A stretch of 64,000 nucleotides of DNA from positions 372,001 to 436,000 of the forward strand of contig NZ_AKCI01000001.1 of assembly GCF_000269605.1 (NCBI RefSeq), written 5' to 3'. Below the pieces are notes generated by a model. The model did not search any database. It saw only the letters and a program-made list of their open reading frames with translations, and was not told the DNA's origin. The DNA is from Scardovia wiggsiae F0424 (GTDB lineage: Bacteria; Actinomycetota; Actinomycetes; Actinomycetales; Bifidobacteriaceae). The translations under genes were made by a program, and so were the position numbers. Positions within the stretch are counted from its first letter, which is position 1, and the number at the start of each line of letters is the position of its first letter. Of this stretch, positions 22,581-51,391 are shown piece by piece.

Positions 22581-23003
22581 ATGGCAGCACAAGCGCGCAG
22601 GGTACGTATGGAAGCACGTACAGCACGTTCTGAGGCTTCCCGTCCCCAACTGCGGGTGATCTCGCACAGCAGCACGGAGCATGCACGCATCCGTGCGGCA
22701 CAGCCGGCAGCAGCATCATGGCTGCAGCGGCATATCACTGCGCGCATGGCGCAGTGGATCGCCGTGGCAACGGTTGCCGCAATAAGCTTTCTGGGCGTGC
22801 TGGGCATGCGCGTAATGCTTGTTGAGAACTCTTTTGAAGTGGCACAGACCCAGCAGAAAGTAACACTCCTCAGCCAGGATGTGGAACAGGAGCAGGCCCA
22901 GCTGGACAAGCTGCAGTCAAGCCTTCCGGACCGTGCCCAGAAACTGGGCATGACTACTTCCAATAACTCCGTAACTGTTGATATGAGCGGTACCGGCCAG
23001 TAA
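22581..23003 (+). CDS. ftsL: FtsL-like cell-division protein
   Basis: A 140-residue bitopic membrane protein: basic cytoplasmic N-terminus of about 55 residues, one transmembrane helix at about 58-80 (WIAVATVAAISFLGVLGMRVML) and an external coiled-coil-like segment at about 84-115 (QTQQKVTLLSQDVEQEQAQLDKL). Sequence similarity is too low for a motif call. Size, topology and the slot between rsmH and ftsI are those of FtsL, which with FtsB and FtsQ activates FtsWI. Start ATG has AGGAG upstream. Confidence 0.85.
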   Translation: MAAQARRVRMEARTARSEASRPQLRVISHSSTEHARIRAAQPAAASWLQRHITARMAQWIAVATVAAISFLGVLGMRVMLVENSFEVAQTQQKVTLLSQDVEQEQAQLDKLQSSLPDRAQKLGMTTSNNSVTVDMSGTGQ

Positions 23004-23072: not shown

Positions 23073-24992
23073 GTGGTAAATAAGGTGCCTGCAGCAAGAA
23101 GCAATCCGTCATGGAAAGGGGATCCGTCCGGCAGCAGCCATTCACGGAACCATGACGGTCCGGCATCCGGAAATGCCGGACGATGGCTTTCCCATCTGTT
23201 CCCTGACACCCATGACCCTTCATACAGCAGGGTATTCCGCCGGCGCACCCTCGGGCTGTTCATCCTTATTATACTTCTTATTACTGGCCTGATCGTACAG
23301 CTGACAGTTGTCCAGCTGGCACAGGGGGCGTCGATTGCACGTGAGGCAGCGGCAGCCCGCAGGGTCGAGAATATCGTCCCGGCAATGCGCGGCACCATCA
23401 CTGATGCTAATGGGGCCGTCCTGGCCCAAAGCGAGCAGCGGTATACGATCTATGCGGATCAGAAAGGCGCCCGCAATTTCCAGCCAATAAAATGCACCGG
23501 AAATAATAAAAGCGTCTGCCATTCGGTCAATGGCAGAGATGTCCCGGGGTCGGGCCCCTCCGCTGCCGCCAGGATACTTGCCCCCGTGATCGGTATGAAT
23601 ACCATGGAGCTTGGTGCAAAGCTTGCAGGCGGCAACTCATATATAGTCCTGAAACGTGATGTAGCGCCTGCTACGAAAAGGGCGATCGACAAACTCCATC
23701 TGTCCGGTGTTATCGGTTCCACCCTTACAGTGAAACGTACATATTCCGGCGACACCGTAGCAGGAGGCCTTCTTGGCGGAGTCAACTCGGAGAATAACGG
23801 TGTTGCGGGGATCGAGAGCATGGAGCAGGGCTCCCTTGCCGGCCAGGATGGGCAGCAGGTCTATGAGCACGGCGGGAACGGGCAGCGGATACCCGGTACG
23901 GAAACAGTGATCGTACCCGCCAAAAATGGCGGTACGGTAAGGCTTACCATTGACAGGGATGTCCAGTGGCTTGTCGAGAAGGCGCTTAATGAACGTATCG
24001 GCGAAGTTGGCGCAGAATGGGGCGTTGCTGTTGTCCAGGACGTGAAAACCGGGAAAATACTTGCTGTCGCAGATACAGGGAATTATAAAGCCGGCAGCCC
24101 GCAGGCAATACTCCATGGTTCAAGGGCGATGACCGCAACATTTGAACCGGGGTCTGTAGGGAAACTTATTTCTGCATCCGGGCTCCTTCAGCTTGGGCTG
24201 CATAAAGGGTCTGACCGGTTCAGCGTTCCCGGCGTGATCACAGTTGACGGTCAGCAGTATAAGGATGTGGAGAGCCATGGGGTCGAACAGCTTACGCTGG
24301 CAGGCATCCTTAATGAATCTTCCAACGTTGGTATGATCATGGCCTCAGATAAGCTTTCTACTGCTAACCGTTATGATTACCTGAAGAAATTCGGCATTGG
24401 GCAGAGTACAGGCATCAATTATCCCGGTATTTCAAGCGGAAGCCTGCCGACACCTGATAAGTGGGGGACCCGCACGAACCAGACCGTCCTGTTTGGGCAG
24501 GGCTATACTGTGAATGCCCTCCAGCTGTCAAATATTGTAGCAACGCTTGCCAACGGCGGGGTCAGGGTCGGGCAGTCCATTATTGACAAATCAACAGACA
24601 AGGATGGGAAGGATACTACCCCCAGGCCTGTGGACAGCACCCGTGTAGTAAGCCCTTCAGTCGCTTCCGACATGATGGATATGATGGAATCCGTAATGAC
24701 TGAAGAATACGGCAGGGTCATTAAAGTTGACGGATACCGGCTTGCCGGCAAAACAGGTACTGCCGAAGTTTCCGGCGGCGGCCGTGCGCTGACAAAAACA
24801 GTTGGCGATACTTCCGTCGTGATCCCCGCTGACAGCCCGCGCTTTGTTATAACAGTCATGTATATGAACCCGTCCTCACACGGCGGCATTGCTACCGGTC
24901 CCGTCATCAACAAGATTGGTGAATTCCTTATGCAGAAGTATAAAGTCCCGCAGTCCAGGCCGCGCGAAAATGCTATAAGTACTACATGGTAG
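23073..24992 (+). CDS. ftsI: Division-specific peptidoglycan transpeptidase FtsI (class B PBP)
   Basis: Cross-links septal peptidoglycan together with FtsW. The 639-residue protein has a cytoplasmic tail, a transmembrane helix at about 60-83, a PBP dimerisation domain and the transpeptidase domain. The active-site motifs are SVGK (Ser361-Lys364), SSN (416-418) and KTG (560-562), all intact. GTG 23073 lacks a clear ribosome site. A GTG at 23085 with GGGTGG upstream is a reasonable alternative; either way the first 50 residues are unconserved. Fourth gene of the dcw cluster. Confidence 0.95.
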   Translation: MVNKVPAARSNPSWKGDPSGSSHSRNHDGPASGNAGRWLSHLFPDTHDPSYSRVFRRRTLGLFILIILLITGLIVQLTVVQLAQGASIAREAAAARRVENIVPAMRGTITDANGAVLAQSEQRYTIYADQKGARNFQPIKCTGNNKSVCHSVNGRDVPGSGPSAAARILAPVIGMNTMELGAKLAGGNSYIVLKRDVAPATKRAIDKLHLSGVIGSTLTVKRTYSGDTVAGGLLGGVNSENNGVAGIESMEQGSLAGQDGQQVYEHGGNGQRIPGTETVIVPAKNGGTVRLTIDRDVQWLVEKALNERIGEVGAEWGVAVVQDVKTGKILAVADTGNYKAGSPQAILHGSRAMTATFEPGSVGKLISASGLLQLGLHKGSDRFSVPGVITVDGQQYKDVESHGVEQLTLAGILNESSNVGMIMASDKLSTANRYDYLKKFGIGQSTGINYPGISSGSLPTPDKWGTRTNQTVLFGQGYTVNALQLSNIVATLANGGVRVGQSIIDKSTDKDGKDTTPRPVDSTRVVSPSVASDMMDMMESVMTEEYGRVIKVDGYRLAGKTGTAEVSGGGRALTKTVGDTSVVIPADSPRFVITVMYMNPSSHGGIATGPVINKIGEFLMQKYKVPQSRPRENAISTTW

Positions 24993-25085
24993 GGATTGGC
25001 TGTTGTACATAATGGGTACTGGCAGCAAACCATATATCAGCCCTGTCGCTGTGACTGCAGGCAGCCTGAAAATAAGGAGATTGGC

Positions 25086-26255
25086 ATGAGCTTCCTGACC
25101 GGTAATATATCCGGGCATTATACGCTTGAAGACCTGATGCACCAGTTCAAGGTGACCAGCACTTTCCCTTACGGGCGCGATATAACTATTACTTCCCTGA
25201 CGGACGATACCGCAGCTGCCAGCCCAGGATGCCTCTACCTTGGCCACGGGGATGGCGATATACCGGCTGAGATCCGTAACGCGCAGGCACAGGGCGCATA
25301 CTGCATACTGTTCCCCAGCAGCGTATCAAAGGTTATTTCTCAGAAGGAGCTGCAGTCTGCTGCAACGGTACCGGTACTGTTCGGCGACCTTAACCAGTTC
25401 GATTCAGGGAGGCTCGCCTATATGCTTGCCGGCAGGCCTACAGATACGCTGGCTACTTTTGGTGTTGTCGGGTCCCAGGCAACATATGCATCGGACAGCC
25501 TTGCGCAGCTTCTGCATCTGCTTGGCAACCCTATAGGGGTTATTGATTCGAGAAGGTCGTTCTCACTGGAACGCGAGCTTACATGCACATATCCGCTGAA
25601 CCCCATAGATACTGAGATGATCCTGTCCCAGATGCTGGAGGATGGGGTCAATACGGTTGTCCTTACGATCAATGACAGAACATTTAAGCGGGGTGCCTTA
25701 AGCCAGGTAGGGCTTGATGTATGCGGGCGCACACAGTCACGTACGATGGCGGATCCTTTGCCGGACACGGACCGGGTAGGGGAATCAGGCGAAGCTGTGC
25801 AGGATGACGGGACGGCTGAGCAGGAGACAGCGGGCATCCAGGACGGTAATACTGATACAGGTACTGCCGCCGGACCGTCTTCTGATACCGGAGCAGCTGC
25901 TGTGCAGGGGGCCGGTCCCAACAGCCCGCAGGCTTCAAAGCGGACATGGTCGCGGTGGATACCCAGTTACCGCAGGAGCGGGGACAATCCTGAGATTGGG
26001 GCATTGAAACCCCAGCTCAGGCGTTCCGTTAAAGATTTCGGAGCGATCATCAATGATGATACGCATTGTGTAGCGCCTACCGATGCTGCGCGCCAGGTTG
26101 TGCAGAGCATTGTGGAAACTGCTGATATCCGGCATGAGTATGAACTGTATCTGGCTGCAGCTATGGCGATGAGCGCAGGGGTCAGGAAAAATAATGTACG
26201 CAGTGCTTTGCTGCTGGCTCAGGAGATCAACAGGCGGCAGGAGGGCAACTCATGA
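25086..26255 (+). CDS. Degenerate MurE-like protein at the dcw murE position (probable pseudoenzyme)
   Basis: A 389-residue protein between ftsI and murF, where murE normally lies. The N-terminal half follows MurE: a DITITSLTDDTAAASPGCLYLG segment split by drift, then AYMLAGRPTDTLATFGVVG leading into the ATP loop. But the loop reads GSQATYAS (129-136) instead of GTNGKTT. The LTTPE and SSHAL substrate motifs are replaced by YPLNPID and LTINDRT. The C-terminal ligase domain is mostly missing, replaced by a Gly/Thr/Gln-rich linker (about 225-300) and a helical tail. Ligase activity is therefore unlikely, and an intact murE lies at 48350-49966. The reading frame is clean and coupled to murF (ATGA), so it is conserved rather than decaying. 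AAGGAG precedes ATG 25086. Confidence 0.82.
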   Translation: MSFLTGNISGHYTLEDLMHQFKVTSTFPYGRDITITSLTDDTAAASPGCLYLGHGDGDIPAEIRNAQAQGAYCILFPSSVSKVISQKELQSAATVPVLFGDLNQFDSGRLAYMLAGRPTDTLATFGVVGSQATYASDSLAQLLHLLGNPIGVIDSRRSFSLERELTCTYPLNPIDTEMILSQMLEDGVNTVVLTINDRTFKRGALSQVGLDVCGRTQSRTMADPLPDTDRVGESGEAVQDDGTAEQETAGIQDGNTDTGTAAGPSSDTGAAAVQGAGPNSPQASKRTWSRWIPSYRRSGDNPEIGALKPQLRRSVKDFGAIINDDTHCVAPTDAARQVVQSIVETADIRHEYELYLAAAMAMSAGVRKNNVRSALLLAQEINRRQEGNS

Positions 26256-27838
26256 TCGTAACTTCAATTGAGCGGTGTGCCCGGGAAGTCTGCGGGCGGA
26301 TCATCTACCCGGATACAGCAGGGCATAATGGCCATGCGCATAATGTTTCCAAAGTCGTTATGGATTCAAGGAAGGTCCGGCCCGGTTCGCTTTTTATCGC
26401 AATCAGGGGGGAGCGCAGTGACGGCCATGATTTTGTCCGTCAGATCGGTGCGGACGGGGCAGTGGCTGCCGTAGTCGAGCATGCAGTAGAAAATGCAGAT
26501 ATCCCGCAGATCGTTGTCAGCAATACTGTCAAAGCATTGGGAAGCCTTGCCAGGTACAATATTGCCAGGCGCAGGGAACTGGCCGTACAGGGCGGTACCC
26601 CTTTTACTGTTATAGGCATTACAGGTTCGGTAGGGAAAACGACGACAAAGGATATTGCATACTCTCTGCTTTCCTCAGCCGGGCCGACGGTAGCTCCCCA
26701 AGGGTCATTCAATAATGAGATCGGGTTGCCGTACACAGCTCTTGAAGTTGATAGGGATACACGGTTCCTTATAGCTGAGATGGGGGCTTCAGCGTTGGGG
26801 GAGATAGCCTATCTGACGCATATAGTTCCTCCCGATATTGCGGTTGAGCTTAAAGTCGGGGTGGCCCATCTTGGCGGGTTTGGTTCTGTAGACAATATAC
26901 GGAAAGCTAAAAGCGAACTTGTCCAGGCGCTTTCAGCAGACGGGACTGCCATCCTCAATGCAGACGATGATAATATCCGGCTGATGGCCGGCTCCGCCGC
27001 ATCCGGCACTATCATCTGGTTCGGTATCAAAGACAGGGATCACAATTTCCCAGATGCCGTCAGCAGCGGATCCGGCAGTAAAAAAGCTGTTGCTGTTTAT
27101 GCCGACAATATTTCTGTAAACCATTATGGCCATCCTGTTTTTGATCTCCACCTGCCCGGCAGCAGGCCTTATACCGTCCGGCTTGGGATACCCGGGGAAC
27201 ATAATATTTATAATGCTTTAGCAGCTTCCTGCGCCGCATACCGTGTCGGTATCCCGGTGCAGGAGATTGCCCGGATACTTGGGGGGCAGGTCCTGAGAAG
27301 CCCGCACCGCATGAGCATCAGCGAGATAAATGCCGGCAGCCCGGATATTTCCGGCGGTCGGAATATGCAGTTTACCCTGATCGATGATTCGTTCAATGCC
27401 AACCCTGATTCTATGGAAGCGGGGCTTAACGGCCTTGCGCAATGGAACAGGGATGCGGATGCTGCTGCCCAGCCTTACCGCGTGGCAGTTTTAGGGCCGA
27501 TGCTCGAACTCGGTCCAGGTGAAGAAGGGCTGCATAAGGATATTGGCCAGTACGCGGCAGAACACGCTGATGCTGTTGTTGCTGTGGGGAATGAGGGGAA
27601 TCCGGCTCTTGACGCTTTAGCCCATTATCTAGCTGACGGTGCGGTACAGGGATACCATGGAAAGGAAGGCCAGGTTTCCGCACCGGTCTACTGGGCCGAG
27701 TCTGCGGCTGATGCTGCGCAGCTGGTCTCATCGTTTGCTGCCAGCCATCCGCACACCGTTGTCCTGCTCAAGGGATCCCACGCATCAGGCCTGCAGGGGC
27801 TTGCAGATATGTGGACTGCACAGGGGAGGAATAAATAA
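26252..27838 (+). CDS. murF: UDP-MurNAc-tripeptide:D-Ala-D-Ala ligase
   Basis: Adds D-Ala-D-Ala to UDP-MurNAc-tripeptide using ATP, in the cytoplasm. The 528-residue protein has the N-terminal Mur domain (VVMDSRKVRPGSLFIAIRG), the P-loop GITGSVGKTTTKD at about 122-134, the metal/substrate block FNNEIGLPYT and AEMGAS, and the C-terminal DDSFNANPDSMEAGL. Somewhat longer than the usual 450-470. Overlaps the upstream murE-like gene by four bases and mraY by one base. Confidence 0.96.
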   Translation: MIVTSIERCAREVCGRIIYPDTAGHNGHAHNVSKVVMDSRKVRPGSLFIAIRGERSDGHDFVRQIGADGAVAAVVEHAVENADIPQIVVSNTVKALGSLARYNIARRRELAVQGGTPFTVIGITGSVGKTTTKDIAYSLLSSAGPTVAPQGSFNNEIGLPYTALEVDRDTRFLIAEMGASALGEIAYLTHIVPPDIAVELKVGVAHLGGFGSVDNIRKAKSELVQALSADGTAILNADDDNIRLMAGSAASGTIIWFGIKDRDHNFPDAVSSGSGSKKAVAVYADNISVNHYGHPVFDLHLPGSRPYTVRLGIPGEHNIYNALAASCAAYRVGIPVQEIARILGGQVLRSPHRMSISEINAGSPDISGGRNMQFTLIDDSFNANPDSMEAGLNGLAQWNRDADAAAQPYRVAVLGPMLELGPGEEGLHKDIGQYAAEHADAVVAVGNEGNPALDALAHYLADGAVQGYHGKEGQVSAPVYWAESAADAAQLVSSFAASHPHTVVLLKGSHASGLQGLADMWTAQGRNK

Positions 27839-28968
27839 TGATCGCCCTTATAATAGGCCTGGTCGTCTCTCTTATTGTTATTTTCGCCGGTACCCCGATC
27901 CTTATCCGGGTCGTTGAAAAGATGCATTACGGGCAGTATATACGGCAGGACGGCCCTAAAAGCCATCAGGTCAAGCGCGGTACACCCACAATGGGCGGCG
28001 TTGTGATCATCCTGTCTGTAGTCCTGGGCTGGCTGGCATCGGCATTATACAGGTTCGCAGCTTTCGGGACCAGGTTCTCTGTGCCTGCCCTGCTTGTGCT
28101 GTTCGCAATGCTGTCTATGGGGTTCCTCGGGTTTATTGATGACTTTGCCAAAGTGTCAAAAAAGCAGAATGAAGGGCTGAGCGTCCATGCGAAGTTTATA
28201 GGCCAATCCATTTTTGCCACGTTATATGCAGTCCTTTCCCTTGTTGCAACATCGCCTGAGACCGGCCCTGCCGCACATCCGGGGATCACATTCAATGAGA
28301 ATGTGATCATTGACTTTAATAAGCTGGGTACTGTTGCCGCCATAGTACTTTTTGTGATCTGGGTAAATTTCCTGATGACTGCGTGGACCAACGCCTTTAA
28401 TCTGACGGACGGTTTGGATGGCCTGTGTGCGGGAAGTTCAATGATCGCATTCCTCGGGTATGCCATGGTTGCATTCTGGCAGAGCTACCACCACAGCGGG
28501 ATGCATCTTAATGGTTTCGGACGCCTTGCTTTCCACCCGGGCGGCATGGCGTATACAGTTGCCGACCCCCAGGACCTCGCCATTATTGCGATATGCGCCA
28601 TTGCCGCATGTTTCGGCTTTCTATGGTATAACACGAACCCCGCAGAAATATTTATGGGCGATACCGGGTCCCTTGCGCTCGGCGGGCTTTTCGCGGCTTT
28701 ATCCGTTGCTACCCATACAGAGGTCCTGGCGGTTATTATTGGCGGGCTTTTCGTTGTGGAGACCCTGTCAGACATTATACAGGTCAGTTTCTTTAAAGCG
28801 ACGCATAAGCGGGTATTCAAAATGGCGCCGATACATCATCATTTTGAGCTGGAAGGCTGGACAGAAACTAAAGTAGTCGTAAGGTTCTGGATGGCTGAAA
28901 TGATATTTGTATTGATAGGGGTCATCCTCTTCTACGGCGACTGGGTTTTGAAATCGGGCCTTCTATAG
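27838..28968 (+). CDS. mraY: Phospho-MurNAc-pentapeptide transferase
   Basis: Integral membrane enzyme that transfers phospho-MurNAc-pentapeptide to undecaprenyl phosphate, making lipid I. The 376-residue protein has about ten hydrophobic helices. Family blocks are KRGTPTMGGVVII, FIDDFAKVSKKQNEGL (the Asp-Asp pair), NAFNLTDGLDGLCAG, MGDTGSLALGG and PIHHHFELEGW. Start overlaps the murF stop (TAATG). Confidence 0.97.
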   Translation: MIALIIGLVVSLIVIFAGTPILIRVVEKMHYGQYIRQDGPKSHQVKRGTPTMGGVVIILSVVLGWLASALYRFAAFGTRFSVPALLVLFAMLSMGFLGFIDDFAKVSKKQNEGLSVHAKFIGQSIFATLYAVLSLVATSPETGPAAHPGITFNENVIIDFNKLGTVAAIVLFVIWVNFLMTAWTNAFNLTDGLDGLCAGSSMIAFLGYAMVAFWQSYHHSGMHLNGFGRLAFHPGGMAYTVADPQDLAIIAICAIAACFGFLWYNTNPAEIFMGDTGSLALGGLFAALSVATHTEVLAVIIGGLFVVETLSDIIQVSFFKATHKRVFKMAPIHHHFELEGWTETKVVVRFWMAEMIFVLIGVILFYGDWVLKSGLL

Positions 28969-47016: not shown

Positions 47017-48357
47017 TTAAAATCCTGTAGAAGTAGGTTTGGGGTAATACCGGCGGAACTTGCGCCACTGGCTTATAGAAGATTCGCAATGGTAAATGCG
47101 GCGCCTGATTGAGTTATCGTTTGGATTGACAACAGGGTCTATACGCCTGCGGTTCCTGATGAGGCCGGCGACTTCATCGGCAGTTTGCGCATCAGTAATA
47201 TACCGTTTCAGAAGGCAGTCAGGGATCACAGTATACAGGACCTTGCCTTGCGCAATACGGGGGGCACTGCCAGCCCCGGCAGCGCCCTCAGCTTCTCCGG
47301 GGGCAGGCTTTTTCTGCTGCAGTGCGCCAAACGGCTGGACCGTATGGGATGGATCCGCAGAAGTGGGGATAAGGTCACGGATAAGCTCTTCCATAGGGTT
47401 TATTCCTGCCCCCACACAGTAGAAGCTGTTGCGTCCGATGCGGGGGTTGACTTCAAGGAAATAGAAGGTCCCAGTATGCGGGTCCCGCTTTACATCAAAA
47501 TTGGCAAAACCTGTGTAACCTGTTGACTCCAAGAACTTCCGGGCGGGACCCAATATTTCTGCGACAGGCTGTGTGACCATAGCGCAGGGGTTGCCCAGGG
47601 TCGCCGGGTGGTGCTCTTCGAGGAGGACCCGGGCGGAAGCCATAAATGTTACCTGTCCCTCAGTATTGGAATATGCGGTGATTGAGTACATGTAGGTGTC
47701 ATCGCCTTCAATAAGCTGCTGGACAGTAAATTTGCCGCGGTAGCCTGTCGTACGCAGGGTATTCCACAGGCTGTCCAGTTCATCCCGGGTGTCGATGCGG
47801 TACACTTTCTGGCGGCCTTCAAACTGGATCTGCTCATACTGTGCGCTTTGCGCAGGTTTGGCAATAAGGGGGAAATGCAGGGTATCGGGCACAGGCTGGG
47901 GTTTCCAGCTGCTGCTGCCGGCTTCAGAAAAATCTTCATAGAATGATTCAGGGACAGGCATGCCGTTGCTGCGCGCAAGCTGTTCAAAAGATTCCTTATC
48001 ATTGAGTTTCTCAATAAGATCAAGCTGCGGTACGGGCAGTGTATAGAACTGCTCAAGGCGGCTGCGGTTTTCGGCAATTGTCTGGATACGCCACTCAGTA
48101 TTGGCCAGAAGGATAAGGGTGCGTCCGGCATCCTCTCTTTTCAGTTTTTCCCCAAGGGAACACAGCTCCTCTATAAGCGGCTGCGCTTCCGAGGCATTTG
48201 CGCAATAGTGGCGGGTCAGGATCGCTGAATCGCGGATCGGCAGGGGGTCGTATTGGGTAACAAGGACAGGTTTAACGCCGTAAGCATCATTGAATTCCCT
48301 TGCTATCGCATATGCGCCAATATCGCCGCCAAGGATTACCGGGAGGAAATCAGCCAT
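47017..48357 (-). CDS. ATP-grasp carboxylate-amine ligase, D-aspartate ligase (Aslfm)-like
   Basis: A 446-residue ATP-grasp enzyme. It follows the pattern I recall for the enterococcal D-aspartate ligase, which adds D-Asp to the side-chain amine of residue 3 of the UDP-MurNAc peptide. Matching blocks are FLPVILGGDIGAYAIAREF, FPLIAKPAQSAQYEQIQFEG, VYRIDTRDELDSL, STGYTGFANFDVKRD and FLEVNPRIGRNSF, the last with the Mg-binding Glu/Asn. An Ala/Gly/Pro-rich insert (about 350-375) precedes a C-terminal domain found only in such ligases. Start overlaps the murE stop by eight bases. The substrate is inferred from these blocks and the operon; no aspartate racemase is in the window. Confidence 0.82.
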   Translation of the reverse strand: MADFLPVILGGDIGAYAIAREFNDAYGVKPVLVTQYDPLPIRDSAILTRHYCANASEAQPLIEELCSLGEKLKREDAGRTLILLANTEWRIQTIAENRSRLEQFYTLPVPQLDLIEKLNDKESFEQLARSNGMPVPESFYEDFSEAGSSSWKPQPVPDTLHFPLIAKPAQSAQYEQIQFEGRQKVYRIDTRDELDSLWNTLRTTGYRGKFTVQQLIEGDDTYMYSITAYSNTEGQVTFMASARVLLEEHHPATLGNPCAMVTQPVAEILGPARKFLESTGYTGFANFDVKRDPHTGTFYFLEVNPRIGRNSFYCVGAGINPMEELIRDLIPTSADPSHTVQPFGALQQKKPAPGEAEGAAGAGSAPRIAQGKVLYTVIPDCLLKRYITDAQTADEVAGLIRNRRRIDPVVNPNDNSIRRRIYHCESSISQWRKFRRYYPKPTSTGF

Positions 48358-49966
48358 GGAGGAGCCCTTTCATTACGGCATCGTCGCCTTCATAAGGGAC
48401 GTGCTTATTAAACTGTTTGATCCATCGTTCGTTACCCTTGCCTATAGCGAGGATGACCGTAGTCTGGCCAGAGGCCTTATGTGCATCGCTGACCGCCGCC
48501 CGCAGGGCTTCCTCGCGGTCAATAATAATGCTGTGCTCTACATCTGTATTGGTGATATAGCGCTCCATTTCCTCACAGATATCCTGCACTTTTTCGGTAT
48601 CTGTATCCTCTGTGGTAAAGATGAAACGGAATATCCTGTCCTGGGCAGCTTCAACAATCTCTCTGCGGCGGTCATAGGCTTTGTTTCCCGCCGAACCGGT
48701 AATGAGGATGATCCGGGGGCTGAGAGATCCGTACGTTTTATCAACGTAATCCAGAAGCGCTGCGGTGCTGACGCCGTTATGCGCATAATCAACTATCCCT
48801 ACTGTACCGTCAGGGGACGTAAAGGTTTCCATACGTCCGGCAATAGTAACCTTTTCCATTGCATGCAGCGCATTTTGCACAGGAGGGGAGCTGAGGTCCA
48901 TGCCTGATGCCTGGACGATGGCTACTGCAGCTGCGGCATTGGCATAGTTGAAATCCCCTGCAATGCTGAGAATAAAAGACCCTAAAGGCGTGGTACCGGC
49001 ATTGATCAGGAATGACTGGCCGTCGGATGAAGGATAAGCATATACATCCTTGCTGTTTGCAGAAACAGGCGGCCGGCAAAGCCTGAAACGGGAAAGCTGT
49101 GTGCTGCAGCGCAGGGCATCCTCTTCCACCAGCCCGGCATGGTCCAGATCCGCATTGATCACGATATGCGAGCTGTTTGCGGTAATTTGCCTTTTACAAT
49201 AGAAATAGTCTTCAAAAGTCGGATGCTCAATAGGGCTTATGTGGTCCGGGGAAATATTGAGGAAAGCGCCTGCATCGAAGTGGAGGCCATAGACCCGGTC
49301 TACTTTATAGGCCTGGGAGGAAACCTCCATAACAAGGTATTCCATGCCGTTATCGGCTGCTTCACACATAAGGCGGAAAAGGTCAAGCGACTCAGGCGTT
49401 GTCAGATCAGATTCCGCAAAAGTATGCCCGTCGGTACAGTTGTCCACCGACGACAGGAGCGCAGCCTTACCTTGGGAATAAGCGTTAAGTATGGAATGGG
49501 TGAAATATGCGGTAGTTGTTTTGCCTTTAGTACCCGTGATCCCAATAACCGTGAGCCTGCGGGAAGGATATCCGAAAAAAGCGGCTGACAGCAGGGCCAT
49601 CGATTTTTTTACATCGTTGACAATGATCCCCGCAGCCCCGGTCGATCCGCTGAAATCTTCCTGGGCAACATAGCAGGGAAGCCCTGAGCTGTTTGCATCC
49701 GTGAGGTAGGAGGCTTCAAACCGGCCCTTGCAGAAGAGCAGGGTCTGGCTGCCGACATCCCGTGAATCATAGGAGATATCGGTAAATACCATATCCCGAT
49801 ACTTCGTGCCCAGGGCATCAGCTGAGCGGGCCCATTGCCCATCTGCAATAATCTCTCTGAGCTGACCGTGGGAATCAAGTATGCCGATCGCCTGGGCAAG
49901 GCTCAGCGTATGGGAAGACGGGGTAGGGGAAAAGGTATCGGGCGAGGATCCTGCAGCCGTTGTCAT
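48350..49966 (-). CDS. murE: UDP-MurNAc-tripeptide synthetase (probable L-Lys or L-Orn-adding)
   Basis: Adds the third, diamino residue to UDP-MurNAc-L-Ala-D-Glu. The 538-residue protein has the N-terminal block ISYDSRDVGSQTLLFCKG, intact P-loop GTKGKTT (145-151), DLTTPESLDLF, VMEVSSQAYKVDRV, NISPDHISPIEHPTF and the catalytic-lysine region FYCKRQIT. The DNPR motif of meso-DAP enzymes is absent; the aligned place reads TTEDTDTE, so Lys or Orn is more likely. It heads the cross-bridge operon, far from the dcw cluster that holds a dead paralogue. GAGG precedes the ATG, which lies only about 11 bases after a TATAAT. Confidence 0.92.
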   Translation of the reverse strand: MTTAAGSSPDTFSPTPSSHTLSLAQAIGILDSHGQLREIIADGQWARSADALGTKYRDMVFTDISYDSRDVGSQTLLFCKGRFEASYLTDANSSGLPCYVAQEDFSGSTGAAGIIVNDVKKSMALLSAAFFGYPSRRLTVIGITGTKGKTTTAYFTHSILNAYSQGKAALLSSVDNCTDGHTFAESDLTTPESLDLFRLMCEAADNGMEYLVMEVSSQAYKVDRVYGLHFDAGAFLNISPDHISPIEHPTFEDYFYCKRQITANSSHIVINADLDHAGLVEEDALRCSTQLSRFRLCRPPVSANSKDVYAYPSSDGQSFLINAGTTPLGSFILSIAGDFNYANAAAAVAIVQASGMDLSSPPVQNALHAMEKVTIAGRMETFTSPDGTVGIVDYAHNGVSTAALLDYVDKTYGSLSPRIILITGSAGNKAYDRRREIVEAAQDRIFRFIFTTEDTDTEKVQDICEEMERYITNTDVEHSIIIDREEALRAAVSDAHKASGQTTVILAIGKGNERWIKQFNKHVPYEGDDAVMKGLLHG

Positions 49967-49983: not shown

Positions 49984-50119
49984 GTAAACAGTTATTCTCA
50001 ACACCATCTACTCTATTTTATTACTGAGACGAGTGGCGGGTCTGCCGGTACATCAGCGGGCGGGATGGTTAAGGCGTGCTATAAAATTATCCATAGACGG
50101 TATAGCGAACGGTGAGCAT

Positions 50120-51391
50120 ATGAAACAGAAGATGACCCTCCAGGAAACATTAGCCCGGCACACGCATACGCATGAAGAAGACTGGTACCCTGTGTTTAAG
50201 GCGCGGTATGGGATGGAAGTAGTGTTCCGTGCGCTGCATGATGTTGTCGGCAGCGGGGATGTCCTCACACAGCTCTATACCTGCATAACAGCTGTTGATC
50301 CTATCATTGCCGCGGGCCTGGAACCCAAATACGGGGATATCGATTTCGACAGCCTCTCCCTGGCGGCCCCGCTTCCCATCGGCAATAATACACGGGCTGT
50401 AGTTTTTCAGCATACTTTCGGTATTATCGCCCAGGATTCCATGGAGAGGGCTGTAAAAGGCCTTCGCGGGAAAGGGGAAGAAGGTAGTGGAGAAGACAGC
50501 GGCAGCAGTTTTACCCTTGTTATAGAGGACTGCGCGCACTGCGCAGGCAGGATGGCGCGGAGCGAAGATGGCGTGCCTCTGGCAGACGTCACCATATTTT
50601 CTTTTGGCGTTGAAAAGATGCTTGATACCCGTTTCGGAGGTGCTGTCTGGGTAAACCCCCGGCTTGGCAGGATGCGCAGCGATGTAGACAGGGAAATCCG
50701 ATTGCGGCTGGGAAGCCTTGGGAAAATAGGCATGCGCCTTAACTGTGTTGCCAGGGCATATGTTAATCAGAACCGCATCCTGGGCCGTCTTGGTGCTGCG
50801 GGAACCTCCCTGCGTACATGGATGGCTGCTGCAGGGCTGTATGAACCCCCTATAAGCGGTGAGGAAATGCGCGGCAGGCTGCCATATAAGCCGATGCGCC
50901 CATCTGAGTGGATGAACAGCAAGGCTGCCGCCCAGATCAGCATGCTGCCGTCAAATGAAAGTGCGCGCAGCGCAATCGTAGATATTTACAGGGATATGCT
51001 GGGCAACAGGGATGGTATCAGGATCCCCGGCCGTATCCTTGCGGCTGGAAAAGCCTTGCCGTTGCTGCGTTTCCCAATTTTTCTGGACAGTACCCGAAAG
51101 GCTGAGGCTGCGCTTCAGGCGGTGAGGGGGACAGGTGCCCTCGCGGAGAGGTGGTACAGGCCTGAGCTTTTCCCCGGTGCTGAAAACAGGTCTGTTTACC
51201 GCATCCCTGAAAACAGGTCTGGTGTGAAGACCAGTACAGAATGCAGCGCACAGGTTGTATGCCTGCCTACCCAGCTTAGTGCCGGGCGTGCCCGGAATGC
51301 CTGCCGGGCCGTGCTTTCCGTACTCAGCGCTGTACAGGGAACCACGAATCCCGCACAGGTGGACGTCCCTGGGATTCCAGATAGGCGTTGA
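50120..51391 (+). CDS. DegT/DnrJ/EryC1-fold PLP-dependent protein, divergent from murE
   Basis: A 423-residue fold-type I PLP protein of the sugar-aminotransferase-like DegT family. The cofactor sites are intact: the ring-binding Asp137 in VIEDCAHCAG and the Schiff-base Lys166 in FSFGVEKMLDTRFGGAVWVN. The N-terminal phosphate-binding block is unusual: RYGMEVVFRAL replaces the SGTAAL-type motif. A Gly/Ser/Glu-rich insert (about 115-131) precedes the Asp. ATG 50120 has GGTGAG upstream; ATG 50135 with AGAAG is an alternative, and a GTG at 50033 is unlikely. Its 3' end overlaps the convergent exonuclease gene by 68 bases. COG0399 proteins often act on envelope sugars; placement suggests a wall role, but the substrate is unknown. 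Confidence 0.78.
   Translation: MKQKMTLQETLARHTHTHEEDWYPVFKARYGMEVVFRALHDVVGSGDVLTQLYTCITAVDPIIAAGLEPKYGDIDFDSLSLAAPLPIGNNTRAVVFQHTFGIIAQDSMERAVKGLRGKGEEGSGEDSGSSFTLVIEDCAHCAGRMARSEDGVPLADVTIFSFGVEKMLDTRFGGAVWVNPRLGRMRSDVDREIRLRLGSLGKIGMRLNCVARAYVNQNRILGRLGAAGTSLRTWMAAAGLYEPPISGEEMRGRLPYKPMRPSEWMNSKAAAQISMLPSNESARSAIVDIYRDMLGNRDGIRIPGRILAAGKALPLLRFPIFLDSTRKAEAALQAVRGTGALAERWYRPELFPGAENRSVYRIPENRSGVKTSTECSAQVVCLPTQLSAGRARNACRAVLSVLSAVQGTTNPAQVDVPGIPDRR

Follow-up and report, generated by a model that had tools for sequence, protein, structure and literature searches.

A MurE-derived putative pseudoenzyme at the murE position of the dcw cluster in Bifidobacteriaceae

Introduction

Why would a gene whose product has lost the catalytic residues of MurE be kept at the place of murE? 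The question is raised by the dcw cluster of Scardovia wiggsiae F0424, in which an open reading frame of this kind (25086..26255, + strand) encodes a protein of 389 amino acids, called pME in this report. Coordinates refer to the window, that is, the whole 64,000-nucleotide stretch of DNA that was analysed. An earlier sequence-only reading had described the gene as a dead MurE paralogue with an intact frame, retained for a non-catalytic task such as scaffolding MurF and MraY or binding UDP-MurNAc peptides.

Multi-enzyme 'Mur complexes' are a long-standing proposal; proof is difficult, as the enzymes are already indispensable for the reactions they catalyse. In MurE the P-loop binds ATP, and several other of the positions lost from pME contact the MurNAc-peptide substrate.

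Results

The dcw cluster of S. wiggsiae is complete and runs mraZ-rsmH-ftsI-pME-murF-mraY-murD-ftsW-murG-murC, followed by a downstream ORF. The pME frame is open, and its ATG start lies just 3' of AAGGAG (25074..25079, +), a probable ribosome-binding site. The gene sits between ftsI (23073..24992, +) and murF (26252..27838, +), the canonical murE position recognized by the sequence-only reading. Beyond murF lies mraY (27838..28968, +), whose orthologues occupy the mraY position in the dcw clusters of other families. An ORF of 140 amino acids between rsmH and ftsI (22581-23003, +) is found at the usual position of ftsL. No second copy of pME was present in the 1.55-Mb single-contig genome.

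An AlphaFold model of pME, built with 33 sequences, had a pLDDT of 82.5, with values of at least 90 at 271 of the 389 residues. Its best structural matches were MurE structures, from M. tuberculosis and other organisms, and not a different family; VIA-align placed pME residues 7-389 on residues 29-385 of M. tuberculosis MurE with a Z score of 21.6 and an rmsd of 4.3 over 282 residues. Aligned by hhalign with MurE sequences from 18 genomes of the order's other families, a pME profile reached a probability of 99.4% and an E value of 1.6e-21, and the alignment spanned domain 1 through the end of the central domain. The match is far beyond chance, and the N-terminal MurE fold suspected from the letters is real. 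Curated models recognize little of this: pME scored 16.7 bits on the NCBI MurE model TIGR01085, below the cut-off of 257.3, and had no match in Pfam. Among 33 family members there was no MurE match in Pfam, and all NCBIfam MurE matches were sub-threshold.

Residues 12-120 (25119..25445, +) correspond to MurE domain 1, the UDP-binding fold, and residues 121-220 (25446..25745, +) to the first half of the central domain; both assignments come from AlphaFold and VIA-align, together with the column comparison described below for the former and the profile alignment for the latter. Residues 221-300 (25746..25985, +), mostly with pLDDT below 50, form a polar, probably disordered linker that replaces the deleted middle of the central domain; it is long in the genus Scardovia and nearly missing in many Bifidobacterium. 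In the profile alignment no counterpart was found of the central-domain segment with DHLDxH and the carbamylated Lys. Residues 301-389 (25986..26252, +) are what is left of the C-terminal end of the central domain, with no ligase domain beyond; the C-terminal ligase domain PF02875 gave no Pfam match, and the alignments stop where domain 2 stops. The sequence-only reading was thus right that the ligase domain is gone, but it misread the tail: the 'helical tail' is matched by the closing stretch of the MurE central domain and therefore does not replace the ligase domain.

Residue losses were scored by column comparison at positions where MurE of the order is conserved to 90% or more. The TGTNGKTT loop is lost except for one Gly, and GSQATYAS (residues 129-136; 25470..25493, +) stands at the GTNGKTT site, as the sequence-only reading had it. 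Both Thr of TTP are gone, the site reading TYP (residues 168-170; 25587..25595, +), as are the E and SSHA of the SSH motif, where NDRT is found (residues 196-199; 25671..25682, +); these two sites, located by profile alignment as well, bear out the reported loss of LTTPE and SSHAL. Further losses are the R of the next segment, RVDG, the N of FTNL, and one Arg and one His conserved in domain 1 of MurE. A survey for conserved loss of the P-loop found the motif missing in all 117 distinct sequences of homologues. Family-wide, the P-loop Lys, TTP, SSH and one substrate-side Arg are gone, and the two substrate motif sites read mostly xYP and (D/N)xxT, in place of TTP and (E)xSS(H/Q). The structural Gly, Ala and Pro residues G48, A66, G70, A71, P96, P118, G129, G147, G151, P170 and G365 are kept. 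By this pattern pME is predicted to be catalytically inactive. Binding of UDP-MurNAc peptides, one of the tasks proposed earlier, is also unlikely, because pME no longer has the domain-1 Arg and His or, in the central domain, the TT, Ser and Arg that are conserved in MurE, though it could conceivably bind some other ligand.

The former P-loop positions 130-135 vary freely among the 117 distinct sequences, in which L143, G147, N148, P149, E185, G187 and D211 never change, H144, L146 and D186 hardly do, and the conservation of R163 is 97%. The family alignment defines a near-invariant, family-specific signature, LLHxLGNP (LLHLLGNP at 25509..25532, +), and E185-D186-G187 (EDG) and GAY are near-invariant as well. 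H144, N148, P149, R163 and D186 differ from the MurE consensus, so that these constraints probably postdate the loss of catalysis. Drift of the ATP loop beside new near-invariant residues fits a retained pseudoenzyme. Two other readings bear on the same residues. A non-catalytic sensor or regulator that binds a peptidoglycan precursor or a nucleotide and signals to a partner would draw on the conserved fold of domain 1 with its structural G48, G70, A71 and P96, and the EDG triplet and R163 could line a new pocket; this reading is rather unlikely, since nothing is left of the P-loop Lys, of the TT, Ser and Arg that face the MurNAc peptide, or of the Arg and His conserved in domain 1 of MurE. 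A new enzyme activity on a re-modelled active site could use the newly near-invariant polar residues H144, N148, R163 and D186, but no known catalytic arrangement was recognized among them and the ligase domain is missing, so that we regard it as very unlikely.

An intact MurE, here MurE2, is encoded at 48350..49966 (-), outside the dcw cluster and about 22 kb downstream of pME; its motifs GTKGKT, LTTPESL, EVSSQA and DYAH uphold the earlier identification, and in the family they read GTKG(K)(T/S), TTP, SSQ and D(Y/F)AH. In all 18 genomes taken from other families, the gene at the pME position encodes a full-length MurE that carries SSH or SSQ together with D(F/Y)AH. A maximum-likelihood tree of the shared columns (LG+G4) placed pME with the dcw MurE of other Actinomycetales families with 97% support, and a mixture-model tree gave the same grouping (98/93). 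A clade of pME and MurE2 was rejected (p-AU 0.035). The pME stem is very long, about 2 changes per site, so that its exact sister is not resolved. According to these trees pME descends from the ancestral actinobacterial dcw MurE, and MurE2 from a different MurE lineage. The term 'paralogue' used in the sequence-only reading therefore has to be revised: pME is MurE's positional orthologue, and MurE2 is its probable replacement, which presumably carries out the MurE reaction. Origin of pME as a duplicate of MurE2 was ruled out by the tree and the AU test, though the latter merely at p 0.035.

MurE2 shares an 8-base overlap with an ATP-grasp-like gene (47017-48357, -), and a DegT-like gene (50033-51391, +) lies nearby. 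This neighbourhood is a candidate for a possible role in cross-bridge formation or precursor modification.

Of 189 genomes of the family, 177 have a relative of pME, among them every one of the 161 that are at least 90% complete. The family is identified as Bifidobacteriaceae because an alignment scan of named genomes gave 119 loci, of which the 80 kept all carried Bifidobacteriaceae names (Bifidobacterium, Gardnerella, Alloscardovia, Pseudoscardovia, Bombiscardovia and unclassified Bifidobacteriaceae); a single-sequence scan of the named genomes returned no pME relative. The position is fixed: all 50 loci compared have pME between ftsI and murF, and in each of 61 long regions murF is the next gene of the dcw cluster after pME; ftsI precedes pME in 60 of these. 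Profile searches covering 248 genomes from 20 families of the order, and 247 genomes of the class, revealed no second dead MurE of this kind. Profile matches outside the family sit in longer frames, nearly all of about 500 amino acids or more, like full-length MurE.

Random breakage of the homologues in sister species, which would speak against retention, was not seen: the frame is intact at 100 of 100 family loci. Pooled over 22 close pairs sharing no genome, pN/pS was 0.271 for pME, 0.285 for murF, 0.241 for ftsI and 0.097 for mraY. Estimates of dN/dS from all pairs with dS below 0.9 (median 0.58) were discarded, the synonymous estimate being compressed at such distances. Purifying selection on pME is as strong as on murF, and the low ratio (0.27), the intact frames and the loss of the P-loop together bear out the earlier idea of a MurE retained at the murE position without its catalytic residues. 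The same reading had pME translationally coupled to murF. An ATGA overlap of the pME stop and murF start is present here (26252..26255, +), but it is not conserved: stop and start overlap in at most 7 of 100 loci, and the gap exceeds 30 bases in 65. A frame kept just to couple murF translation to the upstream genes, or a decaying pseudogene, might account for the overlap in this window and for fast overall change, pME having a mean identity of 46% against 59% for murF. A role in coupling only was rejected on the overlap counts, and the pair of explanations is highly improbable in view of the low pN/pS, the invariant residues and intact genes in genomes of 0.6-0.9 Mb.

Those small genomes belong to genus g13, in which pME is intact and LLHxLGNP is kept in all 7. 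In the one long g13 dcw region examined (L313, L202; genome G177), ftsI, ftsW and the last ORF were not found, and pME lies directly after rsmH. The g13 genomes have at most one SEDS protein and at most two proteins with a transpeptidase domain; S. wiggsiae has two and four. The remaining SEDS protein appears to be RodA, judging from its neighbouring transpeptidase gene.

Genomes without pME are all incomplete (57-89%) and belong mainly to the long-branch genera g4, g8, g10, g11 and g16, which fall outside the pME clade on the RpoB tree (100/100); one more, G165, is from genus g9, whose relatives have pME. In genome size and kinship the pME-less genera are like those of termite-gut symbionts in PMC11707648, a likeness from which their naming is tentatively taken. 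Genera g4 and g11 have a different MurE with GTDGKT. The g11 protein (GTDGKT, NTTPDS) is encoded on the strand opposite the dcw genes (L197:2101-3561, -; L199:4189-5670, +; also L196 and L198), and in L197 it sits between ftsW and murG. This distribution bears on whether pME is a non-catalytic subunit of MurE2 or of a MurE2-MurF assembly, like the pairs of active and pseudo-subunits known elsewhere. MurE2 was present in every pME genome searched for it, and the genera with the GTDGKT MurE have no pME; however, the two states split once on the RpoB tree, so that their co-occurrence amounts to one event only, and none of the pME-less genomes is complete. A MurE2 subunit is accordingly quite unlikely.

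Relative evolutionary rates were compared over 87 branches of 60 dcw clusters. The rates of pME covaried with those of FtsI (rho 0.49, p 1.4e-6), MraY (0.31) and FtsW (0.29), and not with those of MurF, MurC, MurD and MurG (-0.15 to -0.01; MurF -0.03), although such covariation is a weak indicator, the same matrix holding pairs of no known meaning such as rsmH-murF (0.54). The FtsI-pME value was nominally significant under other transformations, with terminal or internal branches only, and without the longest branches, whereas that of MraY failed with internal branches alone. The covariation points weakly to FtsI, FtsW and MraY rather than MurF. As for the scaffold for MurF and MraY proposed earlier, the MurF half is not favoured and the MraY half agrees with the rates. 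Since g13 keeps pME while seeming to be without FtsI and FtsW, these two are not its sole partners; a link to MraY, or to SEDS proteins in general, would fit both the covariation and g13.

Discussion

The findings are, on balance, best explained if pME is a non-catalytic adaptor in peptidoglycan synthesis, a reading that in this general form we consider probable, if not strongly so. The unlinked MurE2, of another lineage, would have taken over amino-acid addition. The original dcw MurE would then have shed the residues that serve ATP, metal and substrate, together with the entire ligase domain and the middle of domain 2, keeping the core of domains 1 and 2 and gaining LLHxLGNP, R163 and D186. 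This core may serve as a cytoplasmic docking surface that holds or positions proteins of peptidoglycan synthesis, probably at the membrane-bound end of the pathway, with MraY and the FtsW/FtsI synthase. The more specific proposal, a clade-universal scaffold linking precursor synthesis at MraY to the FtsW/FtsI synthase, is tentative and less likely than not.

A MurE-shaped protein without catalytic residues, kept nearly family-wide, would make a structural role separable from catalysis. Throughout the bifidobacteria, gut commensals and Gardnerella included, pME would moreover be a cell-wall protein yet to be characterised and unrecognised by Pfam, and, if the scaffold reading is true, an uncharacterised component of their cell-wall and division machinery.

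The literature search found no paper on a MurE pseudoenzyme or on the bifidobacterial gene between ftsI and murF. A Bifidobacterium breve transposon mutant in an annotated 'murE', Bbr_0246, is sensitive to iron chelators (PMC5449479); it was set aside as evidence on pME, since the gene could be pME, MurE2 or another Mur ligase. Structural proteins derived from enzymes are already known in general, and a conserved family of MurE pseudoenzymes is apparently undescribed in the literature searched.

Four known proteins can be set beside pME. With M. tuberculosis MurE (2XJA, 2WTZ) it shares the fold of domains 1 and 2, ancestry and, in related families, the position between ftsI and murF; unlike that enzyme, pME has no P-loop, TTP, SSH or ligase domain, and the middle of its central domain is deleted. 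MurE2 belongs to the same Mur ligase superfamily and the same genome, but is intact, of another lineage and located outside the dcw cluster. In Bordetella pertussis a MurE-MurF fusion interacts with MurG as part of a proposed MurG-centred Mur complex (PMC6420597; MurE-MurF complex entry 8F5D), so that its MurE part belongs to a proposed assembly with other Mur proteins; the fusion is catalytically active, however, whereas pME is separate, truncated and without catalytic residues. PAP11, a MurE homologue of angiosperms, sits at the periphery of the plastid RNA polymerase (PMC12681378) and, with the fusion, offers a precedent for the adaptor reading. Like the role suggested for pME, that of PAP11 (8R6S chain Q, 8XZV chain J) is a structural one of a MurE homologue in another complex, and the pME model matches these chains with Z scores of 21.6 and 19.9, level with MurE. 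The solved PAP11 chains have about 540 residues, in contrast to the 389 of pME, which is without the ligase domain, and PAP11 arose independently, in another host and another complex, whereas the gene for pME still lies in a peptidoglycan operon.
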